From Candidatus Binatia bacterium (GTDB lineage Bacteria > Desulfobacterota > Binatia > Bin18), in contig JAJDTY010000007.1 in NCBI GenBank assembly GCA_022826945.1, forward strand, positions 62,001 through 126,000: 64,000 bases of DNA. Reading direction: 5' to 3'. The notes under the pieces are model-generated. The model worked only from the letters and a program-made list of their open reading frames with translations, did not search any database and was not told the origin of the DNA. A program made the translations under genes and the position numbers. Below, in pieces: positions 50,273 through 56,349 of this stretch; positions within the stretch are counted from its first letter, which is position 1; each line of letters opens with the position of its first letter.

Positions 50273-50731
50273 TCAGTCGTTGGGAGGAGGTTGGACCAAC
50301 TCAAGGACAATCTGGTCGGGGTCCCAAAAGTAACAGGTGTACCCTCCCCGGTTGACGCCTGAAGTGATAGCGTTCGGCGGCGAGAAGAAATGAACGCCGT
50401 CCGCCGTGAGTTGCTCGTAACGAGCGTGGATGTCCGTAATTGTTAGGGCGAGGTGGGCCTCGCCGGGATTACAGATGTCCGGCTTCTGCCGCCTGCCTTT
50501 TGGATGGATGTACTCAACCAACTCAAGGTCGTGGGTCGAGCGACCACGCGGCTGGCCTGGGATGATGAATTGGGCGACCTTGAGGTGAGCGTTCTCATAC
50601 CCAACCAAGCGACTCGTATAGGCGTTGGCCTGTTCCTGGACGAGCATCAGCTTGAGTCCGAGCTTCTGGTAGAACACGATTGATCGTTCAAGGTCCGAGA
50701 CGGTCAGGCTGAAATGCCACACGCCCAACAT
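50273..50731 (-). CDS. VOC-family (glyoxalase/dioxygenase) protein
   Basis: A 152-aa vicinal oxygen chelate protein with two beta-alpha-beta modules. Metal ligand candidates are the His of VWHFSLTVSDLERS near residue 5, the Glu in LELVEYIHP (about 70), His in AHLALTITDI (about 88) and Glu in IVLELVQPP near the end. The set supports a mononuclear metal site; the reaction (lyase, isomerase, dioxygenase) is unknown. ATG at 50731 follows AAAGGAGG. Confidence 0.85.
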   Translation of the reverse strand: MLGVWHFSLTVSDLERSIVFYQKLGLKLMLVQEQANAYTSRLVGYENAHLKVAQFIIPGQPRGRSTHDLELVEYIHPKGRRQKPDICNPGEAHLALTITDIHARYEQLTADGVHFFSPPNAITSGVNRGGYTCYFWDPDQIVLELVQPPPND

Positions 50732-50786: not shown

Positions 50787-51563
50787 TCAGTCAAATGCCA
50801 ATCCACCGCAGACGTTAAGCGCCTGGCCAGTTATATAGCTCGCTGCATCTGACAGGAGAAACCAAATAACCTCAGCAACTTCCTGGGGACTTTCGATCCG
50901 TCCGAGGGGAATAGTGTCGGCCAACCCAGCCAGAGATTCTTCCACGCTGATGCCGCACCGGACGGCCCGCTCCCTATGGATGCCATACGTCATTGGAGTA
51001 TCAACGATTCCTGGGCAGACCGCATTGACCTGGATATTGGCAGCAGCGAGACTGGCGGCTGCGGAGCGAACCAAACTGATGAGGCCGGCTTTACTCGCCG
51101 CGTAGTCACTACTATCGGCACGCGGACCGCGCCCGGCAACCGAGGCAACCATCACCATCCGGCCGGGTTGATTGTTCTCGATCAGGTGACGAGCAGTAGC
51201 CTGGATACTGCAAAATGCGCCGGTCAGATTCACTTCGAACGTCCGGCGCCACTGACGGGGAGACAGCTCCAGAAAGTTGCCGGTATAGATAATGCCGGCC
51301 GTATACACGAGCCGAGTGACGACGCCGAAGGCCGCCCGCGCCTGGGCAATCAAAGAGGCAACGGACGCCTCATCGGTCACGTCAACGCTGCGGGCGAGGG
51401 CCTCGGTGGAGAGATTAGCGACGCTTGCCTCAGCGCGCGCATCATCGATATCAGCGGCAACAAGCGGGATCCCCTGGTCGGCGAGCTTGGCAATGACCGC
51501 GCTGCCAATACCGCCGCACCCAACCACCACAGTGGCTCCACCAAGTGAGTCACGCCCTGCCAT
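50787..51563 (-). CDS. SDR-family oxidoreductase
   Basis: A 258-aa short-chain dehydrogenase. The nucleotide loop reads VVVGCGGIGSAV rather than TGxxxGIG, while the catalytic YAASK (about residue 158) and serine in VASVAGRG are normal, so it is likely active. C-terminus DAASYITGQALNVCGGLAFD is typical. ATG at 51563 has AGGAG upstream; the earlier in-frame ATG at 51590 is not needed. It sits after the GrdB-like selenoprotein gene. Confidence 0.88.
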   Translation of the reverse strand: MAGRDSLGGATVVVGCGGIGSAVIAKLADQGIPLVAADIDDARAEASVANLSTEALARSVDVTDEASVASLIAQARAAFGVVTRLVYTAGIIYTGNFLELSPRQWRRTFEVNLTGAFCSIQATARHLIENNQPGRMVMVASVAGRGPRADSSDYAASKAGLISLVRSAAASLAAANIQVNAVCPGIVDTPMTYGIHRERAVRCGISVEESLAGLADTIPLGRIESPQEVAEVIWFLLSDAASYITGQALNVCGGLAFD

Positions 51564-51671
51564 TGCGTCTCCTCGGAGAGAAATCCCCACCCTGGTCCTC
51601 TCCCGAAGGGGGAGGAAACAGATCTCGGAGGGGATACTGTCTTCCTCTGCCCGACAGTCTGTGTCCGCCTC

Positions 51672-52571
51672 TTAAGCCGCCGTCTCACACACCCCGCAGG
51701 CTTCCGGGTCGTTCTGCTCAGCCAGAATACGGTCTTCTTCGGTTTGATACTGCGGGGTATCGCGGCGTGGGGTGCGGGTGTCGCCGTCATTCATCACGCT
51801 ATCTTTCCAGCTATCATCCTCCGCCCAGCGGAACGGCAGGTGCTTGGTCTGACCAGGCTCTGTAAACGAGGAGAACGCATCAAGAGCCTCAAGCAGGATC
51901 GCGCGCTGGAGTTCCGGCTCGAACGGCTTGCCTGCTGTGTGGCCGAGCAGGTAGTCGAGAAAAGCCGCACGCGGCGGGTAAACGGACTGGAGAATATCCA
52001 GCGCACTCCCCATGCATAATGTCGGGATGCCAGCGGCCTCAGCATTACGGGCAATCAGTCCCACGGACTGATGACACACCGGTCAAACGGGGACCAGCAA
52101 AGCCACATCAACACGCTCGGCCTTCAACTGTTCGGTCAGTTGCGGTGCTAATGCCTCACGGACTTTCCGGGTTGAATAAATACCGCCCATAAAGGTAAAG
52201 GCATGGTCGGCCAGTTCGCCGATGACACCTTCTTCTTCTAAGCGGCGGAGCGTGTCAATTGGGAAGACGACGTTGGGATCACGCCGGGCGTCCGTCTGGT
52301 CGTAAGCAAAATGGGCAGTCCGCAGGTCTGAGGTTGCGACGTCCTTGGGGATGGCTCGGAAGGAAAAATCATCCTTGGTATGAAAAGCGACTTGGCCGGT
52401 CACATAAATGCCACCGGAAGCGATCAAGCCCAGGCGGCATTCCGACAGGGGCTTGGCCAGCGGGGTCCACGGCGGCGTGTCTTCGTTGTGCACCCATTGA
52501 TACGTCTTGTAGCCAAGCGCGGCATAATTGGCCGTAATGCGTTTGATGTAATCGACCGGTGGCTTCTGCAT
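51672..52571 (-). CDS. GrdB-family selenoprotein (glycine/betaine/sarcosine reductase component B-like), UGA read as Sec
   Basis: A 299-aa protein when the in-frame TGA at 52085-52083 is read through. Upstream sequence ends DVALLVPV and downstream continues PVCHQSVGLIARN, giving U163-x-x-C166 in VALLVPVUPVCHQSVG. Both halves fit the GrdB-like family, which has Cys in most homologues. C-terminal half ends DPEACGVCETAA with another CxxC. The canonical GrdB is longer (about 430 aa) and no grdA/grdC is nearby, so this is a short stand-alone reductase of unknown substrate. ATG at 52571 follows GGAGG. Splitting here gives two false ORFs. Confidence 0.88.
52054..52072 (-). promoter_or_regulatory. 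Bacterial SECIS-like hairpin in the GrdB-like gene
   Basis: On the minus strand ATCAGTCC-GTG-GGACTGAT is a perfect 8-bp stem with a 3-nt loop starting with G. The loop lies 18 nt after the UGA (10-nt spacer plus stem), as expected of bacterial SECIS elements. Confidence 0.8.
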
Positions 52572-52648
52572 ATCTTCCTCCAAGGCCCTCACACTGTCAG
52601 GTTTTCTTTACAAAGACAACGGGCCTCTGTTCCGTTTTTCTCGGGTCT

Positions 52649-53431
52649 TCACTCTGGGACGGCACCAAATTCGGCAATAACCGGAGCGTGATCCGAAGCG
52701 CCCTTGCCTTTGCGCGCCTCGCGGTCTATGACAGCGTCCGTGCAGTGCTCGGCCAGCGACTGGGTAACGAGAATATGGTCAATCCGCAGCCCCTTGTTTT
52801 TGGGGAAGGCCAGTTGGCGATAATCCCACCAGCTATACAGCTTGCCTTCGGCGTAATGGAGGCGAAACGTATCAACCAGACCCCACTCACGCAGAGCGGC
52901 AAACGCCTGGCACATATCCGGATGAAACAGGACGCTGTCTTGCCATTCCTCCGGGTCATGGACGTCCCGCGCTTCGGGCGCGATATTCAAATCTCCACAC
53001 AGGGCGAGCGGCTTTTCGGTATCGCACTGAGCGTCAAGAAAGCGCCGGACGCGGCTCAGCCAAGTCCGCTTATACACAAACTTCTCACTTCCGACCACCT
53101 GTCCGTTCGGAACGTAGAGACACAGGATGTGGACTCCTGTAATCTGAGCGGACAAGAAACGAGCTTCAATATCCTCAGGATCACCGTCGAGGCGGCGCAC
53201 GACCTGGCTCGGCTCAGAGCGAGACAAGATAGCGACGCCGTTATAGGTCTTTTGTCCACAAACGGTTACGCAGTAGCCGATGTCCTCAAAGTCACGGCGA
53301 GGAAAGGCGTCGTCCGTGACTTTTGTTTCTTGCAGACAAACGATTTCAGGCAGTTGCTGGCGGGTGAGCCAGTCCAGCACCCGCTCCTTGCGTGCCCGAA
53401 TCGAATTGACATTCCACGTGGCAATACGCAC
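52649..53431 (-). CDS. xthA: Exodeoxyribonuclease III
   Basis: A 260-aa exonuclease/AP endonuclease. ATWNVNSIRARKERVLDW and CLQETKV (Mg-ligand Glu), CGDLNIAP near residue 150, and LRIDHILVT and ASDHAPVIAEF at the C-terminus make the full set. It acts on abasic sites and 3' blocked ends. The GTG start at 53431 lies 4 nt after the nuoG stop (TGA-GCCT-GTG). Confidence 0.94.
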   Translation of the reverse strand: MRIATWNVNSIRARKERVLDWLTRQQLPEIVCLQETKVTDDAFPRRDFEDIGYCVTVCGQKTYNGVAILSRSEPSQVVRRLDGDPEDIEARFLSAQITGVHILCLYVPNGQVVGSEKFVYKRTWLSRVRRFLDAQCDTEKPLALCGDLNIAPEARDVHDPEEWQDSVLFHPDMCQAFAALREWGLVDTFRLHYAEGKLYSWWDYRQLAFPKNKGLRIDHILVTQSLAEHCTDAVIDREARKGKGASDHAPVIAEFGAVPE

Positions 53432-53435
53432 AGGC

Positions 53436-55037
53436 TCAGCTATCGGTCTCTGGTCCGGCTTCGACTAAGGGTGCTCCCTGGAGGCCGATCTTCCCATACG
53501 TCAGCCCGGCAAAGGATGGGACTGAGTGCGTTAATTCGCTAAAAACGTCGCTAATCGAAACAGAGTCCGGGCCGTCCAACCGCGTGCTCAGCAGGGCCAA
53601 CGCCTCCCATCCGGCTTTTGCTTCTCCCGGTGGCGGGAAGGCCTGAGAGAGCCGCTGGACACGCCCGGCCTGATTCGTACACGTCCCGTCCGTCTCCACC
53701 GCCGCCGCGACCGGCAGCACAATGTCCGCGTACTCTGTCGTGCCGTTATAGTCCGTGTCGAGCACGATAACGGTTGTTTCGCCCAAGGCGCGATCAATAC
53801 GTTCTTGGCCAAATGCCGTGACGAGATCCGCGCCAAGAATAAAGAGGACTTTCACCTGCCCCTGCTCTGCCGTAGCGAGAACCGCCTCGGCCTCGCCCCC
53901 ACCGTTCAGTAGCCCCAGACTCTTCAGTCCCTGCGTGTTCGGATTTTTGTCGGCGTGGATCAGGAAGTCATCATGAAACGCATCGGTCGGAGACCACGAC
54001 AAGCCTGCCGTGTGTGTGGAACCGATTTGCTCTCTGAGCAGGCGGGAGAGCAGAAAGGCTTCTTCGTTAGTTGCCTTGGCTCCAATAATCGCCGCGACCG
54101 CATCCGCCCCATGCTCGTCTTGGGTCGAACGGACGGCGTGGGCCACCTTTTTTCCAGCCTCGTCCCACGAGGCGACCGTAAAAGACGATTCATCGCGGAC
54201 TAAAGGAGTGGGAATCCGGCTGTCCTGTTGAAAGGACTTGTACCAGTGCCGCCCCTCATCACACATCCAATACGCATTGACGTCGGGATTCTGGCGCGGC
54301 CGAAACCGAAAGATCTCGCTCCGCCGATGGTAGATATCGATATTGCAACCGGTGGCGCAACGGGTGCAGGTCGAGGGCGTTTTTTCAAGATACCAGACCC
54401 GGGACTTGAAGCGGAAATCCTTGCTCGTCAGCGCCCCTACCGGGCACACGTCAACAACGTTGCCGGAATAGGGATTGTCGAGTTTCTTCCCTGGAAAGAG
54501 ACTGATGCGAGAATGATCCCCGCGCTCAAAAATACCTAACTCGCCGGTCTGGGTTATTTCATCGCAGAAGCGGGTACAGCGGGCGCACAGAATACAGCGC
54601 TCTTCGTCGAGCACGACTTCGGGTCCCAGGTCAACCACTTTCCCCTTATGCACCTTGGCTTCAAGCTGCATCTCACTCTTATAGGCGCCGTACAGCATGT
54701 AATAGTCTTGGAGCTTGCACTCGCCAGCCTGGTCGCAGATGGGACAATCAATCGGATGGTTGATCAAAAGAAATTCGAGCACCGCGGCTTGGGCATGTTT
54801 CGCTCTTTCACTGGTGGTTTTTACCACCATCCCATCGGCAACACGCGTATTACAGCCGATCTGGAGCTTAGGCATGTTTTCGATCTCGACCAGGCACATG
54901 CGGCAGTTCCCCGATATGCTGAGTCCGGGATGGTAACAGTAGTGCGGTACTTCAATGCCGACCTGTTCGGCGGCTTGGATGACGTTGAGACCGTCTTCGA
55001 CCGTCACTTCTTGGCCATCGATTTCAAGTGTTGGCAT
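53436..55037 (-). CDS. nuoG: NADH-quinone oxidoreductase subunit G
   Basis: A 533-aa complex I subunit. N-terminal 2Fe-2S ligands C (HYCYHPGLSISGNCRMC), the H-x3-C-x2-C-x5-C set in HPIDCPICDQAGEC, CILCARCTRFCDE with DVCPVGAL, and CTRCATGCN (N7-type) are visible. The C-terminal molybdopterin-like fold is present but short. Complex I moves electrons from NADH to quinone at the membrane. It follows nuoF by 19 nt. No nuoE is adjacent. Confidence 0.93.
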   Translation of the reverse strand: MPTLEIDGQEVTVEDGLNVIQAAEQVGIEVPHYCYHPGLSISGNCRMCLVEIENMPKLQIGCNTRVADGMVVKTTSERAKHAQAAVLEFLLINHPIDCPICDQAGECKLQDYYMLYGAYKSEMQLEAKVHKGKVVDLGPEVVLDEERCILCARCTRFCDEITQTGELGIFERGDHSRISLFPGKKLDNPYSGNVVDVCPVGALTSKDFRFKSRVWYLEKTPSTCTRCATGCNIDIYHRRSEIFRFRPRQNPDVNAYWMCDEGRHWYKSFQQDSRIPTPLVRDESSFTVASWDEAGKKVAHAVRSTQDEHGADAVAAIIGAKATNEEAFLLSRLLREQIGSTHTAGLSWSPTDAFHDDFLIHADKNPNTQGLKSLGLLNGGGEAEAVLATAEQGQVKVLFILGADLVTAFGQERIDRALGETTVIVLDTDYNGTTEYADIVLPVAAAVETDGTCTNQAGRVQRLSQAFPPPGEAKAGWEALALLSTRLDGPDSVSISDVFSELTHSVPSFAGLTYGKIGLQGAPLVEAGPETDS

Positions 55038-55056
55038 GAAAACCTCTGGGGGAGAC

Positions 55057-56349
55057 TTAGGCAGCTTCGGGCTGGACCGCTGCTTTTTTCAGCGGGCAGC
55101 CACCTTCCGTCACATGGGCAACAAACTCGTCGCGAAACTTCGTCAGATAACTCTGGGTTGGCATGGCCGCCGCGTCAGCTAGGACACACACCGTATTGCC
55201 CATCATATTAGTACAAATACGGTCTATCAGGTCGATATCCTCGGCTTTGCCGTTGCCCTCTTCGAGTCGAACCAGGAGTTTGTGTAACCAGCCGGTTCCT
55301 TCTCGACACGGCGAGCATTGGCCGCAGGACTCGTGATGATAGAAGCGGTCAACGATCTCCAAGGCGCGCACCATACAGGTATCTTCGTCCATCACGATAA
55401 TGCCGGCGGTACCCAGAAAGGCACCGATGGCGCGCATGGAGTCGAAATCCATATGGACATCAATCTCATCCGGCGTCAAAACAGGGAAGGACGACCCGGC
55501 CGGCATGACGGCCTTGAGTTGTTTGCCATCCTTGATACCCCCCGCATAGTCGTAAATCACCTCGCGCAGCGGCATACCCATGGGCAGCTCAAACATACCG
55601 GGCTTCTCAACATGCCCGCTGACTCCATATATTTTGGGGCCCGGTCCGCTTTCCGGCCCAATGGACCGAAACCAGTCTGGACCGTTTTTGATGATAGACG
55701 GCACGCAGGCAAGCGTTTCCACATTATTCACGATAGTTGGGCAGCCAAATAAGCCATATACGGCGGGGAACGGCGGTTTGATGCGGGGGTAGGCGCGCTT
55801 GCCCTCAAGCGACTCAATCAGACCGGTCTCCTCTCCACAGATATAGGCCCCGGCTCCCCGGTGGACGTAGACCTCAAGATCAAAGCCGGTCCCGAAAATA
55901 TCTTTGCCAAACAGTCCCTGGTCATACGCCTCGGCCAAGGCTTGTTCCAGACATTTTGCACCGTAAGCGAATTCACCTCTGATATAGATATAGGCCGTGT
56001 GGGCGTTGATGGCATAGCAGGTGATGAGAATACCTTCTAAGAGGATATGGGTGTTCTTTTCGATGATCGCCCGATCTTTGAACGTTCCGGGCTCACTCTC
56101 GTCTGCGTTGCAGCATAGATAGACGGGCTTATCCGAGTCCTTGGGCAAGAACCCCCATTTGACGCCTGCCGGAAAACCCGCCCCGCCTCGCCCACGCAGG
56201 TTCGATTCTTTTACTTGAGCGGTGACTTCTTCAGGCTTGAGCGTCGTCAGCGCCTGACGCGCTGCGGCATAGCCATCATGAGCCAGGTAGACATCAAGTT
56301 TGTGAATGTCAGGGATATCTTCATGGCGCAGTAAGACGTTTTCGGCCAT
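55057..56349 (-). CDS. nuoF: NADH-quinone oxidoreductase subunit F
   Basis: A 430-aa flavoprotein. LRGRGGAGFPAGVKWGF is the NADH/FMN site, GAGAYICGEETGLIESLEG the FMN binding segment, and ESCGQCSPCREGTGW plus a late Cys near MMGNTVC supply the N3 cluster. It takes electrons from NADH in complex I. ATG at 56349 follows AAGGAAGG. It opens the nuoF-nuoG-xthA unit; the divergent side has no nuoE. Confidence 0.95.
   Translation of the reverse strand: MAENVLLRHEDIPDIHKLDVYLAHDGYAAARQALTTLKPEEVTAQVKESNLRGRGGAGFPAGVKWGFLPKDSDKPVYLCCNADESEPGTFKDRAIIEKNTHILLEGILITCYAINAHTAYIYIRGEFAYGAKCLEQALAEAYDQGLFGKDIFGTGFDLEVYVHRGAGAYICGEETGLIESLEGKRAYPRIKPPFPAVYGLFGCPTIVNNVETLACVPSIIKNGPDWFRSIGPESGPGPKIYGVSGHVEKPGMFELPMGMPLREVIYDYAGGIKDGKQLKAVMPAGSSFPVLTPDEIDVHMDFDSMRAIGAFLGTAGIIVMDEDTCMVRALEIVDRFYHHESCGQCSPCREGTGWLHKLLVRLEEGNGKAEDIDLIDRICTNMMGNTVCVLADAAAMPTQSYLTKFRDEFVAHVTEGGCPLKKAAVQPEAA

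Follow-up and report, generated by a model that had tools for sequence, protein, structure and literature searches.

In the present study, a gene that appears as two open reading frames in a window of 64,000 nucleotides (the whole stretch of Candidatus Binatia DNA that was analysed) was recognised as, almost certainly, a single selenoprotein gene at 52571-51672 on the minus strand, with its UGA decoded as selenocysteine (Sec). The product is predicted to be closer to the proline reductase protein PrdB than to GrdB, yet to be neither, so that the selenoprotein is ordinary as a decoding event and interesting as an enzyme lacking a reaction. Herein, we propose that it might be a stand-alone Sec reductase working without a partner subunit of the PrdA/GrdE type, a mechanism to which we give a probability of about 0.5. 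The features on which the argument draws are the following.

52577..52581, minus strand: GGAGG Shine-Dalgarno-like site, 5 nt 5' of the ATG at 52571 (sequence reading)
51672..52571, minus strand: PrdB-like selenoprotein gene, 299 aa, one Sec, stop codon TAA (one frame in kin)
52083..52085, minus strand: UGA codon for Sec163, residue 1 of the U-P-V-C-H motif (position the same in kin)
52074..52076, minus strand: Cys166, partner Cys of the UxxC motif (81 of 81 aligned rows)
52054..52072, minus strand: predicted bacterial SECIS hairpin, 8 bp stem, GTG loop (fold, covariation, codon choice, Cys homologues)
51687..51698, minus strand: C-terminal Cys292-x-x-Cys295 tail, proposed resolving dithiol (CxxC in 60 of 79 members)
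50787..51590, minus strand: short-chain dehydrogenase gene, 81 nt downstream, possibly co-transcribed (gene neighbours)
50273..50731, minus strand: glyoxalase/VOC-fold gene, further downstream, possibly on the same transcript (gene neighbours)

First, the selenoprotein call draws on conservation, which is decisive, and on the SECIS hairpin, the Sec machinery and the selection acting on the part beyond the UGA. The open reading frame list holds two minus-strand frames (52592-52083 and 52079-51672), in the same frame and split by the one TGA at 52085-52083, exactly as the sequence-only reading had described them. Read-through from the ATG at 52571, the likely start codon with GGAGG (52581-52577) directly upstream, gives the anticipated 299 aa, with ...VALLVPV-U-PVCHQSVG... 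and Sec163 at the first, redox position of the UxxC motif. On base composition alone, 135 open codons beyond a stop have a chance of about 0.7%. Among the best 80 of 194 confirmed relatives in a named-genome collection (hereafter the 80 named loci), 79 carry TGA at the Sec site and one, L092, carries Cys (TGC), even though one of the two search patterns behind the 194 had Cys codons at that site, a choice that would favour Cys forms. The frame disruption that the sequence-only reading had named as the outcome against it was not seen there, and the comparison with Cys homologues that it had recommended aligns Sec with Cys in L092 and in two alphaproteobacterial plasmid genes, L146 and L147, which group in the tree with a UGA-containing paralogue from the genome of the window (support 100/100). 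The phylum labels of members, given as in the records and some evidently outdated, include Binatota, Tectimicrobiota (Entotheonella), Pseudomonadota, Myxococcota, Actinomycetota, Chloroflexota, Acidobacteriota, Spirochaetota and Thermodesulfobacteriota, and the nearest kin among the 80 are mostly titled Candidatus Binatia or Binatota. Because Sec is kept in 79 of the best 80 relatives under so many labels, selenium seems to perform a task here for which Cys is a poor substitute. In a second set of 58 genomes, that of the window included, which overlaps the first (e.g. L066 is G004), 36 have a match. Each of the 24 places that cover the Sec site at 50% identity or more, the gene itself among them, has exactly one TGA; its position was read in 23 of them, loci L022, L028 and L031 being left out of that reading, and two more short pieces stop short of the site. 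At lower identity one TGA is usual, with extra stops in some places (e.g. G014:C362, G009:C227, G043:C29 and G057:C31). Moreover, dN/dS against five close relatives is 0.105-0.239 downstream of the UGA and 0.023-0.052 upstream, which points to purifying selection on the part after the TGA, somewhat weaker than on the part before it.

Second, a perfect 8-bp hairpin, ATCAGTCC-GTG-GGACTGAT (52072-52054), follows the UGA. In bacteria, a SECIS element is a hairpin just past the UGA whose loop, some 16-37 nt downstream, carries a G near its start; here the stem begins 10 nt after the TGA, and the loop, GTG, begins at 18 nt. The hairpin and its loop had thus been described correctly, but the 18 nt given as its distance is that to the loop and not to the stem. 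The fold (-15.2 kcal/mol, z -2.08, with 9 of 200 shuffles at least as good) is modest evidence when taken alone, and it is covariation and codon choice that make the hairpin evidence strong. Across 80 rows (74 distinct), 95.1% of stem cells are paired, against at most 45.6% for slid versions, and 18 double-change cells were observed against 3.7 in shuffles; two measures of covariation are weaker, the three pairs that changed on both sides being matched by 41 of 500 shuffles and the five further pair types by 214 of 500. The stems hold 7.61 of 8 pairs, compared with 5.55 expected under random synonymous codons, a null whose p values are not independent between related loci. The Gly codon in the stem is GGA in 64 of 76 genes and in 198 of 1404 cases elsewhere in the same genes, and all four genes with CAA for Gln have TTG for Leu opposite it, a codon used there in 2 of the 75 remaining genes. 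The stem is broken in all three Cys genes (L092, L146 and L147), with 4-5 of 8 pairs left; one Sec gene, L141, also has just 5 of 8. A search of Rfam returned no SECIS family at the hairpin. On these patterns, the 8-bp hairpin is the predicted SECIS element of the gene.

Third, the sel genes that the sequence-only reading had proposed to look for are all present in the genome. Its tRNA-Sec scores 70.7 bits, over the cut-off, has the anticodon tca (UCA) according to ARAGORN and adjoins selA on the same contig, and SelA (603.7 bits), SelB (384.9) and SelD (309.2) all exceed their cut-offs. A tRNA-Sec was also found at 1e-9 in 34 of 37 genomes behind other loci, three being without one; these genomes belong to 37 of the 80 named loci and were picked to span the groups. 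At 1e-9 the tRNA-Sec model matches 3 of 14 controls, and at a looser threshold it matches all 58 genomes and all 14 controls as well; the claim for the genome of the window therefore depends on the 70.7-bit match and ARAGORN. The SelD of this genus (G000:C17:182599-183516 and same-genus kin) is part of a TGA-free open frame some 760 aa long, which suggests a fused protein; in other genera of the family, several genomes carry one TGA within their SelD. A frame-broken pseudogene, or two separate genes, would account for the two open reading frames in mechanical terms and for the somewhat weaker selection downstream of the TGA. This explanation has a nearly negligible probability given the same-motif TGA at 79 of 80 loci, whose records name many phyla, the Sec/Cys exchange, the covarying SECIS, the Sec machinery and the dN/dS after the TGA, and it was rejected on the TGA conservation, the SECIS covariation and that dN/dS.

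The family to which this predicted selenoprotein belongs was assigned using profile models and a tree. The Pfam GRDB domain PF07355 matches at 5.8e-15 (55.9 bits; gathering cut-off 22 bits), and so the GrdB-like label given earlier holds at the level of the domain family. At the level of the protein it does not: the best NCBIfam model is PrdB (TIGR04483; 181.1 bits, 2.2e-53), compared with 59.1-61.8 bits for the GrdB-type models TIGR01917, NF040794 and NF040795. TIGR01917, with a cut-off of 602.2 over 431 positions, scores 59.1 bits and is matched in its second half only, and for the broad subfamily model TIGR01918 the score falls just short (60.7 vs 65.45), its cut-off being barely reached by L144, one of six other clade members scored. 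The observation that the protein is shorter than classical GrdB is explained by a PrdB-like length, since the model of PrdB is 238 positions long and those of the GrdB type begin to match only at position 200 or so. Canonical GrdB was rejected on the 59.1-61.8 bits, the second-half match and the finding of no PF09338 or GrdA in the genome. One might suppose instead that the gene encodes a D-proline reductase PrdB, transferred to other bacteria with its activity on D-proline retained, as PrdB is the best model, as plasmid-borne PrdB genes of Clostridia and Lactobacillales are 29-36% identical to the selenoprotein, as the UxxCH core is common to four PrdBs, and as PF07355/UxxC genes are listed as PrdB in ocean surveys. 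However, the selenoprotein falls short of the equivalog cut-off of 300, which two PrdB controls exceed (310.2 and 408.2 bits), and six other clade members score 144.9-184.3 (the Cys form L147, 86.7). In a 90-row tree (midpoint root; long branches make deep placement unsure), the clade is parted from the four PrdBs and from two other paralogues of the same genome by a branch with support 100/98; its motif is UP[VI]CHQ against UGTCHR in those PrdBs, and PrdA exceeds its cut-off in none of 58 genomes, that of the window included. D-proline cleavage is accordingly a highly improbable reading, and canonical PrdB was rejected on the score, the separate clade and the missing PrdA. The weaker of the two controls is an annotated PrdB on a plasmid of Peptoclostridium acidaminophilum (L148 2935-3648), barely over the cut-off. 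In addition, the genome of the window (G000) has three more genes of the family, C86:31647-32402 (L065), C54:16067-16636 (L002) and C29:2510-3115 (L003), each with one in-frame TGA at a UPxC motif, making four predicted selenoproteins of the PrdB-like kind; those on C54 and C29 have an extra C-terminal part of about 160-170 aa, and a Pfam search of the genome found C83, C54 and C29 and missed C86.

Characterised relatives work with a GrdE/PrdA-type subunit. Such a partner was looked for with profile models in the whole genome, and the lack of the usual partners, noted earlier for the neighbouring genes, extends to all of the assembly, which is 90% complete: no match to PF09338 (the GrdE/PrdA family), PrdA or GrdA was found in it. 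PF09338 gave no match in 52 of the 58 genomes, that of the window among them, and was absent from 32 of the 37 genomes behind named loci; PrdA (TIGR04480) was over its cut-off in none of the 58, with weak matches in three; GrdA matches occur in 7 of the 58, one of them marginal. The controls were found, two real PrdAs by PF09338 (79.3 and 94 bits) and the one PrdA tried by TIGR04480 (976.5 bits). Haem-copper oxidases have two matches in the genome of the window and at least one in 56 of the 58 genomes. Because no partner was found and such oxidases are present, a Stickland-type use of the selenoprotein is unlikely, in agreement with the earlier suggestion. Six genomes (G008, G029, G036, G043, G050 and G057) have GRDA with TGA together with one to seven PF09338 genes each and are predicted to carry Grd-type systems; haem-copper oxidase matches were found in five of these genomes. 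The protein could nevertheless be an amine reductase after all, with a distant, unrecognised partner subunit encoded elsewhere, as its characterised relatives use one. The GrdE-like subunit of a fluoroacetate system is described as having no pyruvoyl cysteines, so a working partner need not look canonical (PMC10838667). PF09338 genes are present in 6 of the 58 and 5 of the 37 genomes, and a partner may be too distant for the profile models. It can also lie far away, since the annotated PrdB L148 has no prdA within the 6.6 kb examined around it; the stronger control (408.2 bits) sits in a prd cluster. We consider such a partner improbable, as PF09338 and PrdA had no match in the genome while the controls were found, and as no unknown gene is a constant neighbour.

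The neighbouring genes were compared at the 80 named loci and in 21 regions, made up of the window, 19 stretches from relatives and one surrounding a paralogue of the same genome. No constant neighbour gene, known or unknown, stands beside the selenoprotein gene in either set, and none points to a substrate; the neighbours vary by lineage, so that the context yields no pathway, and function from gene neighbours was rejected as an approach. An SDR cluster member follows the selenoprotein gene in four of the six closest loci (L066, L068, L069 and L072; not L067 or L070). Upstream on the same strand are nuoF, nuoG and exodeoxyribonuclease III (52649-56349 of the window), an order retained in the three same-genus regions examined. 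Crotonase (ECH) matches are denser within 1.5 kb of the gene (16 in 226 kb, compared with 7 in 542 kb farther off), in counts that include related loci many times. These ECH genes form about five groups, with no more than 25-40% identity between groups, and ECH was therefore rejected as a single partner gene. Over the same distances, SDR has 9 matches near and 12 far (a 1.8-fold difference in density), ACAD 3 and 12, and LLM 2 and 7. A luciferase-like monooxygenase gene (L065 8121-9527) lies directly upstream of the C86 paralogue on the same strand. Genes of cluster 11, whose representative matches tryptophan halogenase, lie downstream on the opposite strand at L110, L117, L119, L123, L124 and L145, loci titled gammaproteobacterial or Pseudomonadales, and the Roseomonas Cys form adjoins selO (protein adenylyltransferase; L147 3881-5353).

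An AlphaFold2 model with Cys in place of Sec (mean pLDDT 83.7, pTM 0.88) puts residue 163 after strand 156-160 and just ahead of helix 164-179; residues from about 260 on are poorly defined, with low confidence in the CxxC tail. Sequence searches of the PDB found nothing useful, and Foldseek gave no PDB match at E <= 0.001 (top-ranked TM-score 0.24). As no solved structure matches the model well, the active site is not readable by analogy. The alignment has 63 positions that keep one residue in at least 77 of its 81 rows, and about 53 of these fall outside UPVCHQSVGL. Nearly invariant are Sec163, Cys166 and numerous polar residues, including R72, H87, R96, D98, N100, R175 and R201, and the polar ones look like a substrate pocket. 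Of the 79 members whose 3' end is known (L105, cut short by the end of its contig, was left out), 60 have a CxxC in their last 30 aa. It is missing in the other 19, including the Entotheonella rows, most of two groups that branch early as the midpoint-rooted tree is drawn, and the Cys form L092, so it cannot be essential to the family. For the stand-alone Sec reductase, the following mechanism is proposed. The Sec163 selenolate, at a helix N-terminus after a beta strand, would attack its substrate at an electrophilic carbon or leaving-group bond; this substrate would already be activated, because no partner is present to activate an amine. Cys166 would then form an Se-S bond, freeing the reduced product, and the flexible C-terminal CxxC tail, where present, would reduce this bond and be recharged by thioredoxin or a glutathione-type donor. 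A detoxifying or catabolic reduction in respiring bacteria would fit better than amino-acid fermentation. On the other hand, a role in stress defence as a general thiol/selenol-disulfide oxidoreductase or peroxidase, one that has no dedicated organic substrate, would also suit a UxxC at a helix start joined to a C-terminal CxxC, the lack of a constant neighbour gene and haem-copper oxidases in 56 of 58 genomes. It is the less likely reading: the many invariant positions outside the motif and the pocket-like polar residues speak against it, as does the lack of any named thioredoxin in the listed 50 best PDB fold matches, of which none is significant, and the divergence of the four paralogues in one genome suggests that their substrates differ.

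The family of this gene has very probably been seen before. The Sargasso Sea survey reported proline reductase PrdB with 42 Sec genes and one Cys homologue, describing D-proline cleavage, and stated that all its selenoprotein genes had been misannotated (PMC1088965); the GOS survey listed 235 Sec and 110 Cys forms of proline reductase PrdB with PF07355 and UxxC (PMC2398784); in a later marine survey, proline reductase made up 6.4% of selenoprotein genes (PMC9402790); and reviews equate D-proline reductase with TIGR04483 (PMC13188914, PMC9312934). Searches of open-access literature showed no description of a partnerless PrdB-like class. What is new here is that the selenoprotein is not PrdB by the tested criteria and that no partner was found in its genome. 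We therefore advance, tentatively and as a reading we would at present sooner doubt than accept, that one of the most abundant selenoprotein families in environmental bacteria of oxic habitats, which has carried the label of proline reductase for twenty years, may be a separate class of one-subunit Sec reductases that cleave an activated carbon-heteroatom bond, most of them recharging their selenium through a built-in CxxC tail and none with a pyruvoyl cofactor. If the survey label of proline reductase misfits the clade, part of the predicted selenium use of the ocean has no assigned reaction. Moreover, Sec would be used beside haem-copper respiration in this genome and in most relatives searched. 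Genes of this kind that contain UGA are easily misannotated, and the Cys forms L092, L146 and L147, the latter two alphaproteobacterial and plasmid-borne, offer testable proteins that need no Sec incorporation.

Compared with known systems, the selenoprotein has in common with PrdB (TIGR04483) the GRDB-domain core, the UxxCH motif, a UGA-coded Sec and a similar domain size. Unlike PrdB, it scores far under the cut-off, stands in a separate clade with UP[VI]CHQ in place of UGTCHR, has no PrdA found in its genome, belongs to a family with a C-terminal extension of about 50 aa (with the CxxC in 60 of 79 members), and occurs beside haem-copper oxidases. With GrdB and its sarcosine and betaine forms (TIGR01917, NF040794 and NF040795) it has PF07355, in the second half, and UxxC in common, but it is without the N-terminal half, matches beginning at model position 202 or later, and without PF09338 or GrdA as far as found. 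The Sargasso and GOS PrdB sets resemble the clade in being marine, with UxxC in both surveys, PF07355 in the GOS table and more Sec than Cys forms, and on the shared domain and motif we infer that they probably include it; they were taken there as proline reductase, and the accessible text of the two surveys discusses no partner gene (PMC1088965, PMC2398784). The fluoroacetate system of Cloacibacillus differs in belonging to an anaerobe and in having an operon with a GrdE-like partner, described as being without cysteines for the pyruvoyl group, and a radical SAM gene (PMC10838667). Nevertheless, in the accessible account of that system a GRDB-type Sec protein is proposed to cleave a non-amine C-X bond, as in the proposal made here. 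Without being evidence for fluoride in the present case, this parallel makes an activated non-amine substrate thinkable for the stand-alone Sec reductase.
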